From: an uncultured Clostridia bacterium
Lineage (GTDB): Bacteria; Bacillota; Dehalobacteriia; UBA4068
Assembly (NCBI GenBank): GCA_944393575.1
Contig: CALYAP010000053.1
Span: forward strand, 1 to 62,726
Direction of reading: 5' to 3'
DNA length: 62,726 nucleotides
The position numbers and the translations under genes are program-made. Below are positions 13,599 to 27,086 of the stretch, piece after piece. The notes under the pieces are model-generated. The model ran no database searches. It saw only the letters and a list, made by a program, of their open reading frames with translations, and was not told where the DNA came from. How positions within the stretch are numbered: the stretch's first letter is position 1; each line of letters starts with the position of its first letter.

Positions 13599-14447
13599 TT
13601 AGAAAAGCGGTACTACTGCTCCGCCATAAGTCTCTTCCATGAACGTTCTGACGGTATCGCTCTGTAATGCTTCAGCTAATGCCTGAACGGCAGGATTATC
13701 TTCATTACCTTCTTTGACAACCAAAACATTTACATAGGTTTGGGCTACATCAGAGAAATCATCTTCTTGAACCAGACCATCGGTATTAGCGTTCAGACCA
13801 GCCTGAAGGGCATAGTTGCCATTGATAACAGCAAAATCAACATCAGGCAGAGCGATAGTAATCTGAGCGGCTTCCATCTCTTCGATCTGCAGGTTCATGG
13901 GATTATCAACAATATCCAATACGGTGGCAGTATGGCCTACGCCATCAGCTAAGGTGATCCAACCGAGATTCTGTAATAACAGCAGAGCGCGGCCTTCATT
14001 AGTACCGTCGTTAGGTACAGCGATAGTAGCACCGTCGTATACTTCTTCTAAAGTAGCAGTTTTACCAGGATAGATAGCATATGGCTCATAGTGGATTGAG
14101 GCTACAGAAACCAGATGAGTTCCTTGCTCTTCATTGAATTGATCCAAATAGGCTTGATGCTGGAAATAGTTGGCGTCCAGACTGCCATCTTCTACTGCGG
14201 TGTTCGGGATAACATAATCGTTGAATTCTTCAATAACAAGGTCAATACCCTGTTCTGCCAAGATATCTTTGGTAGCAGCTAGGATCTCAGCATGAGGCGT
14301 AGGGCTGGCGCCAACGGTCAAGGTTACTCTTTCGGTATCAGCGTTGGTGTTTTCATCATCAGGATTATCAGCTGGTTCCTGAGCACAACCAGCGGCAAAG
14401 GTGAGTACCAATGCCAAAGCCAATAAAATCAATAATGCCTTTTTCAT
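13599..14447 (-). CDS. metQ: methionine-binding lipoprotein of the MetNIQ importer
   Basis: This 282-residue substrate-binding lipoprotein has a lipobox FAAGC with the lipidated Cys at residue 21, then an acidic linker and the NlpA domain: LTVGASPTPHAEIL, NYFQHQAYLDQFN and the C-terminal VRTFMEETYGGAVVPLF. It catches methionine outside the membrane for MetI/MetN. AAAGGAG precedes the ATG. It is the last gene of the operon, 74 bases after metI; the Met T-box ahead of metN confirms the substrate. Confidence 0.95.
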   Translation of the reverse strand: MKKALLILLALALVLTFAAGCAQEPADNPDDENTNADTERVTLTVGASPTPHAEILAATKDILAEQGIDLVIEEFNDYVIPNTAVEDGSLDANYFQHQAYLDQFNEEQGTHLVSVASIHYEPYAIYPGKTATLEEVYDGATIAVPNDGTNEGRALLLLQNLGWITLADGVGHTATVLDIVDNPMNLQIEEMEAAQITIALPDVDFAVINGNYALQAGLNANTDGLVQEDDFSDVAQTYVNVLVVKEGNEDNPAVQALAEALQSDTVRTFMEETYGGAVVPLF

Positions 14448-14521
14448 CTGTCTTTCTCCTTTTGTAGTAAAATATTTTATTTATAAATAAAACCAAAAAT
14501 AAAACCAAATGAAAGATCTTT

Positions 14522-15184
14522 TTAACGGATCCTCTTATCAGCACGGCGGGCTATCCAGTTGCCGATGCCTTGGAAAACCTGGACAATAATTACTAGGATA
14601 ATAACCATTAAAAGCATGATATCTGTTTCCTTGCGGTAATATCCGTAGTTGATGGCAATGGCGCCGAGACCGCCGCCAGCTACGAAACCGGCCATGGCGG
14701 AATAGCTGAGGATCGTGGTCAGAGAAAGCGCTAAGCCGGTCAGTAGGGAAGGCATTGCTTCCGGAACCAGCACTTTGCGCACGACCTGCATTGTGGAGGC
14801 GCCCATAGAAAGGGACGCTTCAATTACGCCCCGGTCTACCTCCTTAATCGAACTCTCTACTACACGCGCTACAAAAGGCGCTGCTGCGATAACCAACGGT
14901 ACTACGGTAGCAGTTGAACCGATGCTGGTTCCGGTGATTAAACGGGTAAAGGGAATGACTGCTACCAACAAGATGAGGAACGGCACCGAACGCAGAATAT
15001 TAACGATAGCGCCCAGAATATGATTGACTGGTGCATTAGGCCGGATACCGTTTTTATCGGTGACAACTAAAATTAATCCTAAAGGAAGACCAATAATGTA
15101 GGAGACTAGGGTAGAGAGCAGAGTCATATATAAGCTTTCACCCAGACCTTGCAAAGTAACTAAAATCATTTGCTCACTGAACAT
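14522..15184 (-). CDS. metI: methionine ABC transporter permease
   Basis: This 220-residue membrane permease has five spans and the ABC-coupling stretch with EASLSMGASTMQVVRKVLVPEAMPSL. It forms the membrane channel of MetNIQ. The ATG at 15184 has AGGAGGG in front and lies inside the end of metN (11-base overlap), which fits coupled translation; the longer frame to 15220 has no such signal. Confidence 0.94.
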   Translation of the reverse strand: MFSEQMILVTLQGLGESLYMTLLSTLVSYIIGLPLGLILVVTDKNGIRPNAPVNHILGAIVNILRSVPFLILLVAVIPFTRLITGTSIGSTATVVPLVIAAAPFVARVVESSIKEVDRGVIEASLSMGASTMQVVRKVLVPEAMPSLLTGLALSLTTILSYSAMAGFVAGGGLGAIAINYGYYRKETDIMLLMVIILVIIVQVFQGIGNWIARRADKRIR

Positions 15185-16205
15185 AGCTCTCTCCCTCCTC
15201 TGTATAAGTAATACCTTCATCGTCCAGGTAATTCAACATTCGTTGATAAGTCACCGGATTCTCCGGCATTTGTAGGATCATCTGACCATAGGTCATGCCA
15301 TCGATTTCTTTGGTATCGGCAAAAGCGATACTAACCGGAGCCCCACAAGTCAGAACCATATCAGCCACTATTGGTCGGGCGGTGATATCGCCATTAAATA
15401 CCAGACGAATAAAATTACCCTTACCGGTAAAGGTCTCTACCTGTTGTCCCATCGGATAGATGAGTTTTTTCGCAGCTGCGGTTTTAGGATGGCGGAAAAC
15501 TTCTTCTACCATCCCCATTTCTACGATGCGGCTCTCAGCGATAATTGCTACCCGAGAACAAACCTGTTCGATAACTTTCATCTCATGGGTAATGATGACT
15601 ACAGTAACGCCCAGCTGTTGGTTAAGCTGTTTGAGCAATGCCAGGATTGACTGGGTAGTAGTCGGATCCAGGGCACTGGTTGCCTCATCACATAATAAGA
15701 CTTTGGGATTATTGGCTAAAGCTCGGGCGATAGCAATGCGTTGCTTTTGACCACCGGATAGTTGAGATGGATAAGCCTTAGCTTTGTCGCTCAGCCCAAC
15801 AGTATCCAGTAATTTTTCAGCCCGCTTGATCGCCTCTTTACGGGGAACCCCTGCTAATTCTAGCGGGAAGCAGATATTATCCAAAGCCGTCCGTTGCATC
15901 AGCAGATTAAATCCTTGAAAAATCATGCCAATGTTCTGTCTAGCCCGGCGCAATTGTTTTTCTGAAAGCAGAGTCATCTCCTGACCATCAACGATAACTT
16001 GTCCGGCAGTAGGCCGTTCCAGAAGGTTGATGCAGCGCACCAGTGTGCTTTTGCCCGCTCCAGAGAGGCCAATGACGCCAAAGATCTCTCCGCGCATGAT
16101 ATCGATAGTAATATCATTGAGAGCGACTACTGTATTGCTATCAGAGCTAAAGGTCTTATTAAGGCCTTTAATTTGGATAATCGGGGTTTCGTTTGAGTTA
16201 AGCAT
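15174..16205 (-). CDS. metN: methionine ABC transporter ATP-binding protein
   Basis: This 343-residue ATPase has Walker A GLSGAGKST, the Q-loop at FQGFNLL, signature LSGGQKQR, Walker B LLCDEATSALD and the switch His in ITHEMKV. The C-terminal extension of about 90 residues is the NIL/ACT-like domain that senses methionine in MetN. AAAGGA precedes the ATG. It is the first gene after the T-box leader and drives the MetI/MetQ importer. Confidence 0.95.
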   Translation of the reverse strand: MLNSNETPIIQIKGLNKTFSSDSNTVVALNDITIDIMRGEIFGVIGLSGAGKSTLVRCINLLERPTAGQVIVDGQEMTLLSEKQLRRARQNIGMIFQGFNLLMQRTALDNICFPLELAGVPRKEAIKRAEKLLDTVGLSDKAKAYPSQLSGGQKQRIAIARALANNPKVLLCDEATSALDPTTTQSILALLKQLNQQLGVTVVIITHEMKVIEQVCSRVAIIAESRIVEMGMVEEVFRHPKTAAAKKLIYPMGQQVETFTGKGNFIRLVFNGDITARPIVADMVLTCGAPVSIAFADTKEIDGMTYGQMILQMPENPVTYQRMLNYLDDEGITYTEEGESYVQ

Positions 16206-16244: not shown

Positions 16245-16506
16245 ACGTCCATGATGAAAATTCATCAAGGACGATAGCGAATGCTTCGTGGTACCACCTT
16301 GGTTCACCCATACCTCGCGGTATAGGCCTTATTGAGTATGCCAATACTCCAACGCGATAACGGGCGTCTCCCGTCGCAGCCTATGGTCACCCATTCGGTG
16401 CGCAGCTCCAAGACCATCTTCAGCATGGCACGACACACCCGTTTCCAGCATCCGGGCTCTCTGGTAGCGCAATTACCAAGCTTACTCTTCTCTTCATCGC
16501 CTTTTT
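16245..16506 (-). promoter_or_regulatory. Met T-box leader of metNIQ
   Basis: On the minus strand a long structured leader ends in the T-box AAGGTGGTACCACGAAGC (16283-16300) and a terminator hairpin, CGTCC...GGACG, followed by seven Ts (16238-16273). The 5' part has the stem I start GAAGAGAAGAGTAAGC, and the sequence GAAGATGGTCTTGG holds an ATG at 16415-16417 in the position of the specifier codon, that is methionine. Uncharged tRNA-Met would open the terminator and turn on the importer. The T-box is read directly; the exact specifier loop is inferred. Confidence 0.9.
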
Positions 16507-17426: not shown

Positions 17427-18113
17427 ATGAAAAAAATTTATCAAGGAAAAACCAAAGATGTCTTTGAACTCGATAATGGCAATGTTTTGCTTAAATTCAA
17501 GGACGATTGCACTGGTAAAGACGGCGTTTTTGATCCAGGAGAGAATTCCGTTGGCCTAACTATTGAAGGTATCGGTAAGGCCAATCTGGAAACTTCGATC
17601 CATTTCTTTGAGATTTTGAAAAAAGCTGGTATCAAGACACATTATATCAGTGCTGATGTTGATAATGCTACGATGGAGGTCGTACCAGCTAAAGTGTTTG
17701 GCAAGGGCTTAGAAGTCATTTGCCGCTTAGTGGCTACTGGCAGCTTTATTCGCCGTTATGGCGATTATATCGCTGATGGCACGCCTTTGCCTGGCGGATA
17801 TGTAGAATGTACTTTTAAAGACGATGCTAAAGGCGACCCGCTAGTTACTAGCGAGGGTTTGGTTGCCCTGGGTGTGATGAGCATTGAGCAGTTCAACAGC
17901 CTGAAGGAACAAACGCTCAAAATTACCAAAATTGTTGCTGATGATCTCAAGACCAAAGGCCTCGATCTCTGGGATATCAAATTTGAGTTCGGTTACGATA
18001 ATAATGGCGAAGTTATTCTTATCGATGAGATCGCCAGTGGTAATATGCGTGTCTATCAGGGGAATAAGATTGTTGATCCTGTTGATTTGACCAATATCAT
18101 CCTTGGTAAATAG
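17427..18113 (+). CDS. purC: phosphoribosylaminoimidazole-succinocarboxamide synthase
   Basis: This 228-residue enzyme joins aspartate to CAIR in purine synthesis, using ATP. The N-terminal [11 protein letters not shown] nucleotide loop, [17 protein letters not shown], the DPLVTSEG stretch, [10 protein letters not shown] and [14 protein letters not shown] are all present. The protein is slightly short (usual length about 235-240). GCGAGG precedes the ATG. It stands alone: no other pur biosynthesis genes adjoin it, and no purine riboswitch is visible ahead of it. Confidence 0.95.
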
Positions 18114-21522: not shown

Positions 21523-22755
21523 TTATTTTAGGACAGCCTTATGATAGACTTTTTTCCCTTTGCGCAGGAGTGCTTCGCCATCATGAAAATCATTTTTACT
21601 GATAGCATAATCATGAGCAGTAATACGTTCATTATTCAGATAAATGCCGCCGTCTTTAATTAAACGCCGTCCCTCGCTATTGCTGGAAATCAACCCACAT
21701 TCGGTTAGCAGGTCGATAATAGTTAACCCTTTGCTTAAGGACTCTGCGCTGATTTCGGTGGTAGGCATATTAGCTGTATCCCCGCCACCCCCAAAGAGTG
21801 CTTTGGCAGCGCTTTGGGCCTTATTAGCTTCTTCCTCGCTATGCACCAGCTTGGTCACTTCATAGGCTAATGTTTCTTTGGCCTTATTGATATCAGCACC
21901 ATGTTCCATATCGGTCATGGCTCTAACCTCGTCCATCGGAATAAAAGTTAAAAGGGAAAGGCAATTGCGGACATCAGCATCATCAATATTCCGCCAATAT
22001 TGATAAAACTCATAAGGACTGGTCTTTTCTGGATCCAGCCAGACTGCTCCGCTTTCTGTTTTGCCCATCTTTTTACCGGCAGCAGTAGTTAACAGCTTGA
22101 AGGTCAGGGCATGTGCCTGAGCACCTTCTACCCGGCGAATTAGATCAGCGCCAGCTAAGATATTAGACCACTGGTCATTACCGCCCATCTCCAATAATGC
22201 CCCATAGCGGCGATATAATTCCAGGAAGTCATAGGACTGCATCAGCATATAGTTAAATTCGAGGAAGGTGAGACCTTTTTCCAGACGAATCTTGAAACAT
22301 TCTGCGGTCAGCATTCTATTGACGGAGAAAAAGCGCCCATAGTCGCGAATAAATTCAATATACTTCAGATCTAGTAGCCAATCAGCATTGTTAACCATGA
22401 TTGCACCGTCTTTATCATCAAAACGGAGGAAGCGGGAGAAGGTTTTCTTGAATTTCTCTGCATTAGCCGCAATCTCTTCTTTAGTCAGCATCTTCCGCAT
22501 ATCAGTGCGCCCGGAGGGATCACCAACCAATGTAGTGCCGCCGCCGATCAGTGCGATAGGACGATGGCCGGACTTTTGCATATGCATCATGACCATGATT
22601 TGGATAAAGTGGCCGACGTGCAGGCTGTCAGCAGTAGGGTCAAAACCGATATAAAAGGTGACGGGGCCACTGCCAAGTAGTTCCCGTACCTCTTCCATAT
22701 TAGTAGATTGCTCTACAAAACCACGTTCCTGTAATATATCGAAAACATTATCCAT
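21523..22755 (-). CDS. tyrS: tyrosyl-tRNA synthetase
   Basis: This 410-residue enzyme charges tRNA-Tyr. The class I motifs are HVGH (46-49) and KMGKT (229-233); the tyrosine pocket shows in [14 protein letters not shown] and GGNDQWSNI. The C-terminal S4-like RNA-binding domain begins near 345. The KMGKT form is that of the TyrZ-like branch rather than KFGKT. AAGGAAC precedes the ATG. No T-box is seen ahead of it, only a normal promoter. Confidence 0.96.
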
Positions 22756-22931: not shown

Positions 22932-23882
22932 ATGAAATATAATATCTTGGGCAGAACCGGGATCAAAGTAAGTGAGTTGTGTTTTGGCATTTTACCTATG
23001 GGGCCCCTTCAGGCGGATATGCCGGCAGATGAGGGTGGAGAACTGCTCTTATCAGCTATGGAGCAGGGGATAACTTTTTTTGATACTGCACAGATGTATG
23101 GTTCATATCCGCATTTGCGTTATGCGCTGGATCGTTATCACGGTGATGTGGTTATCACCGGTAAATCAGTGGCAGATACTTATGAGAAGATGTCCCAGGC
23201 TATTGAAGAAGGTCTGCAGGCTCTTGGCCGGGATCATTTTGATGTTTTTCTTTTACATGCAGCTAGAGTAGGGGAGGATATTTTGCAGCAACGCGCTGGA
23301 GCTTGGGAATGTCTCCAGGATTATAAAAAGAAGGGCTACCTGCGCGCTATCGGCGTTTCCACTCATAATGCTAAGGCAGTTGATATGCTGGCAGATAATG
23401 AGGAGGCGGATGTTATCTTCTGCCTTTATAATAAAAATGGCCTAGGTATTATTTCTGGCGGACCGGCAGAAATGTTGGCAGCTGCCCAGCATGCCTATCG
23501 GAATGGCAAAGGTGTATATTCCATGAAATTACTTGGTGGAGGCAATTTACTCACCGATATTATCGATGCTTTTGCTTTTGGCCGTCGGGAGTCATGTTTT
23601 GCAGCTCATGCTGTCGGCATGGTAAAACCCCAAGAGCTGGAGATGAATCTACGCTTTTTCAACGATCAGCCTGTGACCGCTGAAGAAGTGGCTGGCATCA
23701 AGAACAATAAGCGTTGGCAGCTGATGTATGCCTTATGTAAAGGATGCGGCAATTGTGTCGCTAATTGCCATAGCCAGGCATTGAAGATGGTGGACGCCCA
23801 TCCACAGGTTGTCCTGGAAAACTGTGTTCTCTGCGGCTATTGCGCAGCTGATTGTCCTGAGTTTGCTATCAGGGTCAGATAG
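22932..23882 (+). CDS. aldo/keto reductase with C-terminal 2x[4Fe-4S] ferredoxin domain
   Basis: This 316-residue protein has an aldo/keto reductase barrel with the catalytic tetrad Asp51, Tyr56, Lys78 and His109, and a C-terminal ferredoxin domain with two clusters: Cys269, 272, 275, 279 and Cys298, 301, 304, 308. The family is common in anaerobes and probably passes electrons between an iron-sulphur partner and a substrate. The ATG at 22932 has AAAGGAG in front. The next gene begins 55 bases on, so it may share a transcript with the permease. Confidence 0.9.
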   Translation: MKYNILGRTGIKVSELCFGILPMGPLQADMPADEGGELLLSAMEQGITFFDTAQMYGSYPHLRYALDRYHGDVVITGKSVADTYEKMSQAIEEGLQALGRDHFDVFLLHAARVGEDILQQRAGAWECLQDYKKKGYLRAIGVSTHNAKAVDMLADNEEADVIFCLYNKNGLGIISGGPAEMLAAAQHAYRNGKGVYSMKLLGGGNLLTDIIDAFAFGRRESCFAAHAVGMVKPQELEMNLRFFNDQPVTAEEVAGIKNNKRWQLMYALCKGCGNCVANCHSQALKMVDAHPQVVLENCVLCGYCAADCPEFAIRVR

Positions 23883-23937: not shown

Positions 23938-25752
23938 TTGGAAAATGAAGGAATAAAGTCCGCTCCCGGGGGGGCGTCCGGTTCTCCCGGGTTGAAGAAG
24001 CATAATATTAGTACGTTAACCGTCTTTTTTATGATCTTCTGCATGGTCAGCGCAGGTGCTTACGGAATCGAGGATATGATTCCGGCGGCAGGCCCGGGGT
24101 TGACTTTAGTGTTGTTGGCTGTGTTGCCTTTTTTTTGGAGCATTCCCCAGGGATTAGTTGCCGCTGAGCTAGGTAGCGCCATTCCTGAGGAAGGTGGCTA
24201 TTATAAATGGATTCAGCGCGGTCTAGGTGAGTTCTGGGGATTCCAGGGCGGCTGGTGGCGCACCTTATCTATTTATATCGATTCCACTCTTTATATCGTT
24301 CTAGCGGTAGGCTATCTTTCTGCTTTAATAGAGATGAGCGATACGATGGTCTTTATCATCAAAGCGGCTTTAATTCTCATTTTTACCTATATTAATATCC
24401 GCGGTATTTCTGATGTGGGACGTCTTTCGTCATATTTTTCCATTTTTGTGATGGCGGCCTTTTTAATAATGACGGTGCTCGGATTTGTCAATTGGAATAC
24501 CAATCCTTTTGTACCGTTTATTCCTGAAGGACAGTCCTTGGTGAGCTCTATCGGCCTTGGTATTGCCATTTGTATGTGGATGTATGCTGGCTATGAATCA
24601 ATGTCCACTATGGCTGGCGAGATGAAGAATCCACAGGTTATTCCTAAAGCTACTATTCTGTCTGTTCCCGCGATTATGCTCTTGTATATTCTGCCGACTA
24701 TGGCTGGTTTGGCCTCGGTAGGCAATTGGGACCAGTGGTCTACAGAGGGTGGTATCAGTTTTGCTACCGTTGCCTCTTCATTGGGTATCCCTGCTTTTGG
24801 TATTATCTTTGGTATCGCTGCTATTGTTTCTAATATGTCATTATACAGCACTTATTTGGCTTCTGGTTCACGCGGCTTTTATTCGATGGCAGAAGATAAG
24901 CTCTGCCCAAAATTTTTCGCTGATATTCATCCTAAGCATGGCACACCCTATAAAGCTATCATCAGTATGGCCATTATTAATATTATTTTGTGTAATTATG
25001 GTTTTGATGTTTTAGTGGTGATTGATGTCTTTTTGCTGATGTTCGCTTATATATTGATCTACATTGCTGCCATCGCTTTAAGGATCAAAGAACCAAATCT
25101 TAAACGTCCTTTTAAAGTTCCTTTTGGCACCAAAGGCCTGATTGTTTTTTGCGCTGCTCCAATCATCCTTGCTGCAGTAGCACTTTTCACTAATGGCATC
25201 ATCTATTTTATTGGCGGTTGTCTTGGGGTTCTCTCCGGTCCGATTGCTTATTTCATTTTTAAGCATAAATATGGCGGCATGGATCACAATAAAGCTATTC
25301 CTAAAGAGGCCAAGACAGCAGGGATAATTCTTTGCGGAGTAATGGCTATCTGTATAGCTGTTTCTGGAGTTATGTTAGTTGGCGATCGTAATGAAGCGCA
25401 TAGTGCGTTGAACGATTTTAATAACCAATATTTAAGCAGTGCGGTAGAAACAGATATTTATTTCGACTGGGGCGATGAGCTCTATGCACTGTCAGTTGTG
25501 GATCAAAACGGCGTGGAATATAGCATTTATTATGATGATGATTTTTATGGTTCAGTAGAGTTAGCTGATTATTATGAGTCTCCAGAGGCTTTTGCTGCTG
25601 ACGCCTATGCTGAACTTAGCTATTTGGCTAATAGCGGAGTGCCGTTGGCTTGGGTTGATATATCTTCCGGCCAGTACCTTTGCTATGGCGCTGAATATGA
25701 CAGCTATCATTCTGCTGCTGATATGGTTGAGGATGTACGGAAGTCCTATTGA
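23938..25752 (+). CDS. APC superfamily amino acid permease with extra C-terminal domain
   Basis: This 604-residue transporter has about twelve membrane spans with APC motifs: GAYGIEDMIPAAGPG in span 1 and AAELGSAIPEEGGYYKW in span 2. A further hydrophobic segment (about 461-482) is followed by about 120 acidic, Tyr-rich residues that would lie outside the cell and are not part of a normal APC permease. The start is a TTG at 23938 with AGGAGG in front. It reads into the lyase gene 41 bases downstream. The substrate is unknown. Confidence 0.85.
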   Translation: MENEGIKSAPGGASGSPGLKKHNISTLTVFFMIFCMVSAGAYGIEDMIPAAGPGLTLVLLAVLPFFWSIPQGLVAAELGSAIPEEGGYYKWIQRGLGEFWGFQGGWWRTLSIYIDSTLYIVLAVGYLSALIEMSDTMVFIIKAALILIFTYINIRGISDVGRLSSYFSIFVMAAFLIMTVLGFVNWNTNPFVPFIPEGQSLVSSIGLGIAICMWMYAGYESMSTMAGEMKNPQVIPKATILSVPAIMLLYILPTMAGLASVGNWDQWSTEGGISFATVASSLGIPAFGIIFGIAAIVSNMSLYSTYLASGSRGFYSMAEDKLCPKFFADIHPKHGTPYKAIISMAIINIILCNYGFDVLVVIDVFLLMFAYILIYIAAIALRIKEPNLKRPFKVPFGTKGLIVFCAAPIILAAVALFTNGIIYFIGGCLGVLSGPIAYFIFKHKYGGMDHNKAIPKEAKTAGIILCGVMAICIAVSGVMLVGDRNEAHSALNDFNNQYLSSAVETDIYFDWGDELYALSVVDQNGVEYSIYYDDDFYGSVELADYYESPEAFAADAYAELSYLANSGVPLAWVDISSGQYLCYGAEYDSYHSAADMVEDVRKSY

Positions 25753-25793: not shown

Positions 25794-27086
25794 GTGATTG
25801 AAAAGTACGCTCTACCGGAAATGAGCAAGATTTTTAGCGAAGACAATCGTTACCAGTTGATGACGGATGTGGCGGTGACTGCCTGTGAAGCGATGGCTGA
25901 TATCGGTCAGATCCCAGTTGAAGCTTATCAAGAGATCAAAGCGAAGGCGGGCTACGATATTCAGCGTATCAAGGAAATAGAGAACGAAACTAAGCATAAT
26001 GCAGCTGCCTTTCTTGCTTGCATGAAAGAGCGGATTGGCCCTGCTGGCAATTATCTCCACTGGGGAATGGCTTCTGCTGACTTGGTCGATACCACAGTGG
26101 CTTTGCAGGTCTGCCAGGCCTCGGATCTGCTTTTGGGTAAGCTCAGTGTGCTTCGTTCCGTGTTGGCTGATATTGCTAATAAGTATAAATATACTTTGAT
26201 GATGGGGCGAACTCACGGGACGGAAGAGGAGCCGATAACCTTTGGGCTAAAGATGGCTGTCTGGGTGAGAGAGGTAGAGCGTTCGATCAACCGCCTTACT
26301 AACGCTAGAAATGTGATGGCCGTTGGTAAGATTTCTGGCGTGGTGGGTACCTTTTCTACCATTGATCCGCATGTGGAGACCTTTGTATGCCGTCGTCTGG
26401 GTTTGCATCCTGCTTATGTTACTACGCAGATTCTTCAGCGTGACCGTTATGCAGAGTTTATCTCTACTTTGGCTATTATTGGCAGCTCATTGGATAAGTT
26501 TGCTACAGAGATCCGCAATTTATCCCGTACTGATATTCATGAAGTAGAGGAGTCAATGGCCGAAGGACAAGCTGGCTCTACCGCTATACCTTATAAACTG
26601 CGTCCTTTTAATTGTGAATTGATTTCCGGTTTGGCTCGGATGTTGCGCGGCTTTTGTGTGCCGGCAATGGAGGATATTGTTATCTGGCACGAGCGCGATA
26701 CCACTCATTCACCAGTAGAAAAATTTATTATTCCCGATAGCTGCTTACTGCTGGACTATATGATTTATTTGTTTACTGATGTGATGAAGAATTTAAAGGT
26801 TTTTCCTGAACGGATGAGCTATAATATTGAAATAAGTCATGGGGTCATTTTTTCCCAGCGGCTGCTATTAGCTTTACTAAGAAAAGGGGTAATGAGGGAT
26901 AAAGCTCGGGCGATGATTTCCACTAATGCCAAGATTGCCTCTGAGCAGGAAATCGATTTTCAGTATCTGGTCTTAGAAGACCCTAATATTAATTCTATTT
27001 TAACTCGCTCGGAGATTATGGATATCTTTGATTTTGATTGCTTCCGGAAAAATATCGATTTTATCTTTGAGCATGCAGGATTATAA
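25794..27086 (+). CDS. adenylosuccinate lyase family protein, altered active site
   Basis: This 430-residue protein is clearly of the PurB branch of the fumarase/aspartase superfamily: LHWGMASADLVDT, MMGRTHG, the long helical core, and WHERDTTHSP. Several positions differ from normal PurB: the signature loop is GSTAIPYKLRP instead of GSSAMPHKRNP, TSSD is ASAD, and HAEP is EEEP. It may use a different substrate. The start is GTG 25794 with GGGGAGGAG in front; an in-frame start at 25749 would overlap the permease. Purine synthesis cannot be excluded. Confidence 0.8.
   Translation: MIEKYALPEMSKIFSEDNRYQLMTDVAVTACEAMADIGQIPVEAYQEIKAKAGYDIQRIKEIENETKHNAAAFLACMKERIGPAGNYLHWGMASADLVDTTVALQVCQASDLLLGKLSVLRSVLADIANKYKYTLMMGRTHGTEEEPITFGLKMAVWVREVERSINRLTNARNVMAVGKISGVVGTFSTIDPHVETFVCRRLGLHPAYVTTQILQRDRYAEFISTLAIIGSSLDKFATEIRNLSRTDIHEVEESMAEGQAGSTAIPYKLRPFNCELISGLARMLRGFCVPAMEDIVIWHERDTTHSPVEKFIIPDSCLLLDYMIYLFTDVMKNLKVFPERMSYNIEISHGVIFSQRLLLALLRKGVMRDKARAMISTNAKIASEQEIDFQYLVLEDPNINSILTRSEIMDIFDFDCFRKNIDFIFEHAGL

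Follow-up and report, generated by a model that had tools for sequence, protein, structure and literature searches.

The window, by which we mean the whole stretch of 62,726 nucleotides analysed (contig CALYAP010000053.1 of assembly GCA_944393575.1, from an uncultured Clostridia bacterium), carries a purB gene that stands outside any pur operon and encodes a protein with an altered substrate pocket. PurB is a highly conserved enzyme of purine synthesis. We think it somewhat more probable than otherwise (roughly 0.55) that this displaced PurB, hereafter PurBL, has been repurposed and now acts on another substrate as a fumarate-type lyase. Gene content, synteny and the tree identify it as the Bacillus-type purB that its lineage inherited vertically from its ancestors, the other pur genes of the old locus having been lost. 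Strong purifying selection has preserved the stranded gene while the shell of residues that binds the substrate has changed.

Identity and descent of the displaced PurB

Translation of PurBL starts at a GTG codon at position 25794, with a good Shine-Dalgarno sequence, GGGAGGAG, upstream. In a profile search the protein scored 432 bits over its full length with the PurB model TIGR00928 (cut-off 326.2), and the domains Lyase_1 and ADSL_C were matched as well. The closest solved structure was PurB of B. subtilis (1F1O, E = 1.5e-126, query residues 17-445), with an alignment ungapped from query residue 17 onward, and the top structural relatives were the PurBs of B. subtilis, S. aureus, B. anthracis and T. 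maritima. The motifs read GSTAIPYKLRP, HWGMASAD, MGRTHGTEEEP and WHERD. The PurB homology, the altered loops GSTAIPYKLRP, ASAD and EEEP and the retained MGRTHG and WHERD, all claimed in the preliminary description, were thus confirmed by sequence, profile and 1F1O. Since two congeners, 92% and 77% identical to PurBL, carry the same loop changes with small differences, these are not sequencing errors; the two were the only close relatives found in a scan of genome contigs, the six other loci being distant lyases of 24-27% identity.

Two other assignments were rejected: argininosuccinate lyase (TIGR00838, 55.6 bits against a cut-off of 279.5; the argH of the genome lies at L011:3847-5226) and XcbD, 3-sulfopropionylcysteine synthase (NF052536, 269.7 bits against a cut-off of 600), PurBL being nearer to PurB. 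It should be borne in mind that all 11 altered PurB genes described below exceed the cut-off of the PurB model and would therefore be annotated as purB. A structure predicted from three admissible sequences had a mean pLDDT of 48.6 and was set aside.

Table 1. Coordinates within the window of PurBL, of its residues discussed in the text and of neighbouring genes
Feature	Position	Strand	Basis
PurB-like lyase (PurBL), 430 aa, displaced Bacillus-type PurB	25794..27086	+	TIGR00928, 1F1O, Shine-Dalgarno, tree
D69N; D69 in PurB contacts ribose and orients R310; changed in 11/11 altered PurBs	25998..26000	+	residue table
HWGMASAD: T93A, S94 kept, T/S95A	26070..26078	+	residue tables
H141 (catalytic acid) kept, then GTEEE: H144E, A145E	26214..26231	+	residue tables
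Signature loop GSTAIPYKLRP, residues 261-271: S262, K268 kept; S263T, H267Y, N270R	26574..26606	+	residue tables
R310K; phosphate contact in PurB	26721..26723	+	residue table
APC-type amino acid permease, 604 aa, C-terminal extension, TTG start	23938..25752	+	PF13520, TIGR00909
Aldo-keto reductase with C-terminal 4Fe-4S ferredoxin domain	22932..23882	+	PF00248, Fer4
tyrS, syntenic anchor common to altered loci and canonical pur operon loci	21523..22755	-	synteny

Besides PurBL, the genome that contains the window (G000; 1.67 Mb, 97% complete) encodes five proteins of the lyase superfamily, namely ArgH, one human-type PurB and three XcbD/PRK08937-like lyases. The latter are encoded at L007:146-1597, L008:9462-10835 and L009:6295-7671, and two of them have ABC transporter genes close by, with binding proteins that are NMT1/ThiY-like. 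The human-type PurB (L010:6503-7918; 357 bits with TIGR00928; loop GSSAMAYKRNP) is the last gene of a complete operon on contig C47, purE-purC-purF-purM-purN-IMP cyclohydrolase (purO-like)-AICAR formyltransferase-purD-purL-guaB-purB. A second, normal purB, which had been proposed as a thing to look for, is consequently present, and PurBL is neither part of a pur operon nor the sole purB of its genome. Judged by gene content, purine synthesis in G000 does not need PurBL. No other pur operon gene was found at the PurBL locus, in agreement with what had been stated before; the gene 8 kb away taken then for purC is a PurC-like paralogue (window 17427-18113, + strand) that scores 125 bits against the purC cut-off of 189.9, the real purC being in the pur operon on the other contig. 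The idea that the PurC-like protein and PurBL form an aspartate-dependent amidation pair was rejected: the PurC-like gene is patchy in the class and does not track altered PurB.

Comparison with related genomes, in which neighbouring genes were named by BLAST against named loci and by reading of the sequences, places PurBL at the former site of a pur operon. In the canonical family members G009 and G013 the Bacillus-type purB is part of the gene series purE-purB-purC-purM-purN-purH-purD, adjoining tyrS, and purE of G009 adjoins the same aldo-keto reductase (AKR) as is found near PurBL. PurBL still lies by tyrS in 11 genomes of the GTDB family, G000 among them, and by the AKR in 10 of these, but purE and the genes from purC to purD have disappeared from the locus; several of these genomes share downstream germination and hisA genes with canonical loci. 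The 11 altered PurBs group in a single clade (support 99/98), nested among canonical PurBs and sister to the canonical genus g8. All 11 altered genomes carry the second kind of pur operon; purM of this second type, with 65-100% identity to the G000 copy, is confined to them and to G006, which yielded no PurBL. Those canonical genomes that have a full-length purM carry the other purM (about 55%). The simplest history is replacement of the pur operon and then survival of one gene of the old one.

Four genomes of the altered clade, G002, G005, G012 and G018, yielded no human-type PurB. In G002 the contig ends within guaB of the second pur operon, at the point where purB would be expected next, and the other three are MAGs of 83-90% completeness. 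Separately, no PurB above argH-level scores was found in G006, G007 and G010, all with purE, which points to either MAG gaps or an unrecognised PurB.

In a wider sample of the phylum none of the eight genomes with human-type PurB also had a Bacillus-type match, so that outside this class the two types normally exclude each other. Within the class both types are present in 16 genomes, and all 15 tabulated Bacillus-type copies are altered, the sixteenth genome, G032, being absent from the residue table.

Substrate pocket and selection

In S. aureus PurB, with the same numbering as PurBL, the phosphate is contacted by R4, Y5, N276, S306 and R310, the ribose by R67 and D69, the base by T95, N6 by H141 and Q212, and the succinyl group by S94, Q259, K268, N270 and possibly T93/T140 (PMC2917274). 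Among 17 contact residues that are invariant in 21 canonical PurBs, PurBL changes six (R4K, D69N, T93A, S263T, N270R and R310K), and at position 276 it has L, where most canonical relatives have R and B. subtilis has N. It retains Y5, H68, S94, H141, Q212, S262, K268, E275, R301 and S306. The catalytic set of the PurB class, H141, Q212, S262, K268 and E275, is present in PurBL and in all 10 relatives, D69 and S263 being changed in all 11; the contacts R4, D69, T93, N270 and R310 are all replaced in PurBL. According to Segall and Colman, mutation of N270 in B. subtilis PurB reportedly almost abolishes activity. N270R is common to the genera g1, g2 and g11, which group together in the tree (91/87). 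Elsewhere in the altered clade H68, H89, S94 or R301 is lost, the g11 relatives lacking all four, and the pockets vary between genera. Some phosphate binding by PurBL may remain, because the exchanges R4K and R310K are conservative ones and the protein retains S306, Y5 and R301.

PurBL is therefore likely not the purine enzyme: a normal purB lies in the pur operon, and the binding contacts are changed with the catalytic set kept. That earlier suggestion thus stands as likely, on the grounds of the second purB and the changed phosphate, ribose and succinyl contacts, and the proposed tree and residue mapping gave the supported clade and the pattern just described; however, the changes are not significantly concentrated at the contacts. 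PurBL differs at 6/17 contacts versus 20/96 other canonical-invariant residues (Fisher p = 0.22), for which reason active-site concentration was rejected for the window protein, and its loop changes belong to a general acceleration. In g11, G015 and G005 the contact changes are concentrated (p about 0.01); these tests treat sites as independent while relatives share history, and hence are indicative only.

It is unlikely, in our estimate, that PurBL still acts as adenylosuccinate or SAICAR lyase, whether held in reserve or serving one of the two reactions of PurB, its pocket having become looser. Its score above the PurB cut-off, the ten retained residues listed above and the apparent lack of any other PurB in G005, G012 and G018 would fit such a role, but N270 and D69, both invariant in the canonical PurBs, are replaced, the full pur operon has its own PurB, and the losses in g11 are hard to square with service as sole PurB.

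The altered pocket is under selection. Between G000 and G002 PurBL shows 197 synonymous and 33 non-synonymous codon changes, and its dN (0.0425) is close to that of tyrS (0.0405), dS being saturated. Within genus g1, contact positions are identical to those of G000 at 20/20 in G002 and 18/20 in G001, against 92% and 76% for the rest of the protein. Near fixation of the contacts together with codon constraint argues that the altered pocket is maintained, and speaks against decay. A decaying relic without function, which the long branches in the tree might suggest, is accordingly contradicted by the codon data, by constraint like that of tyrS and by a reading frame open in all 11 genomes, and we regard it as most improbable.

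Family f2 (L098-L107) has a second altered PurB, separate in the tree, with the copy beside purE, purF and purM in most loci read and human-type PurB elsewhere in nearly all genomes. This copy has S262A in four genomes and further contact changes, its sequence still being conserved; loss of activity would be more likely here than in the clade of the window. Both this sister case and the variation of pockets between genera could speak for PurBL as a non-catalytic protein with a structural or regulatory role, for instance in ligand sensing or partner binding. Retention of the five core catalytic residues throughout the clade of the window stands against it, making such a role quite improbable.

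Gene neighbourhood

The neighbours of PurBL are tyrS, the AKR, the permease, TetR, DegV and germination genes. The AKR is the steadier partner: it is near PurBL in 10/11 altered genomes, with short gaps (next but one where the permease intervenes), versus 3/11 for the permease, which adjoins PurBL in G000, G002 and G008 and was not found elsewhere in the remaining eight. In the window the permease stop ends at 25752 and 41 bases separate it from the PurBL start, exactly as described previously. The permease is probably co-transcribed with PurBL; a scan for terminators in the AKR-permease-PurBL stretch found no more than shuffles do, none of them standing out. An Rfam search of the PurBL locus yielded neither a riboswitch nor any other RNA family. 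Further away, a T-box leader at 16264-16506 (- strand) precedes an operon for an ABC transporter of the methionine type (13599-16205, minus strand).

From this arrangement and the altered loops it had been proposed that PurBL is a lyase for an amino-acid-like succinyl compound imported by the permease. The short gaps, the arrangement preserved in G002 and G008 and the constraint on the permease are compatible with this. However, the permease was rejected as a constant partner given its presence in only 3/11, which also makes import of the substrate a weak inference, and the same permease stands beside riboflavin genes in the three loci of family f7 with enough context; we consider this proposal rather unlikely. 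It should be added that the C-terminal extension of about 125 residues that follows the transporter domain (window 25375-25752, + strand) is missing from the f7 permeases, which are otherwise 63-68% identical.

Proposed function and comparison with known lyases

As gene content, synteny and the tree show, a second complete pur operon with human-type PurB took over purine synthesis and the other pur genes of the old locus were lost; the stranded PurBL was retained under selection with an altered substrate shell. Since H141, S262, Q212, K268 and E275 are intact, the reaction of the superfamily is most likely retained: Ser262 would take the C-beta proton, His141 would protonate the leaving group, fumarate would leave or be added, and K268 and perhaps R270 would hold carboxylates. 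The compound paired with fumarate has probably ceased to be a ribotide, because ribose-phosphate positions (R4, D69, 276, R310) and succinyl positions (T93, N270) are replaced; our best guess is a non-nucleotide N- or S-succinyl compound. More tentatively, and with rather less than even confidence, we suggest that operon replacement freed the resident PurB to give rise to one or more new non-nucleotide fumarate lyases, each genus with a pocket of its own. If true, this would be a natural before-and-after series of an essential enzyme gaining a new substrate once relieved of its old job. Among the papers that could be searched, none dealt with PurB repurposing or pur operon replacement. Displaced PurBLs in 11 related genomes, beside unaltered sisters with purB in the pur operon, represent a phylogenetically resolved, likely case of repurposing that is testable with a handful of purified proteins.

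PurBL resembles PurB of the Bacillus/Thermotoga type (1F1O, 2X75, 1C3U) in fold family, full-length alignment and H141/Q212/S262/K268/E275, its identity being 44% with the B. subtilis enzyme and 61% with that of G009, a canonical sister. Unlike these, it has R4K, D69N, T93A, H144E, A145E, H267Y, N270R, 276L and R310K, and lies outside the pur operon in a genome with a second PurB. The S-(2-succino) lyase 2SL belongs, as does PurBL, to the lyase class I family and releases fumarate from a non-nucleotide adduct; it is encoded in yxe loci together with genes for an acetyltransferase, a deacetylase and an ABC transporter (PMC9706529), none of which adjoins PurBL, and the PurBL locus is not of the yxe type. 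The XcbD/PRK08937-type lyases belong to the same superfamily as PurBL; the three paralogues in G000 (L007, L008 and L009) are 27-28% identical to it, and XcbD itself acts on a non-nucleotide.
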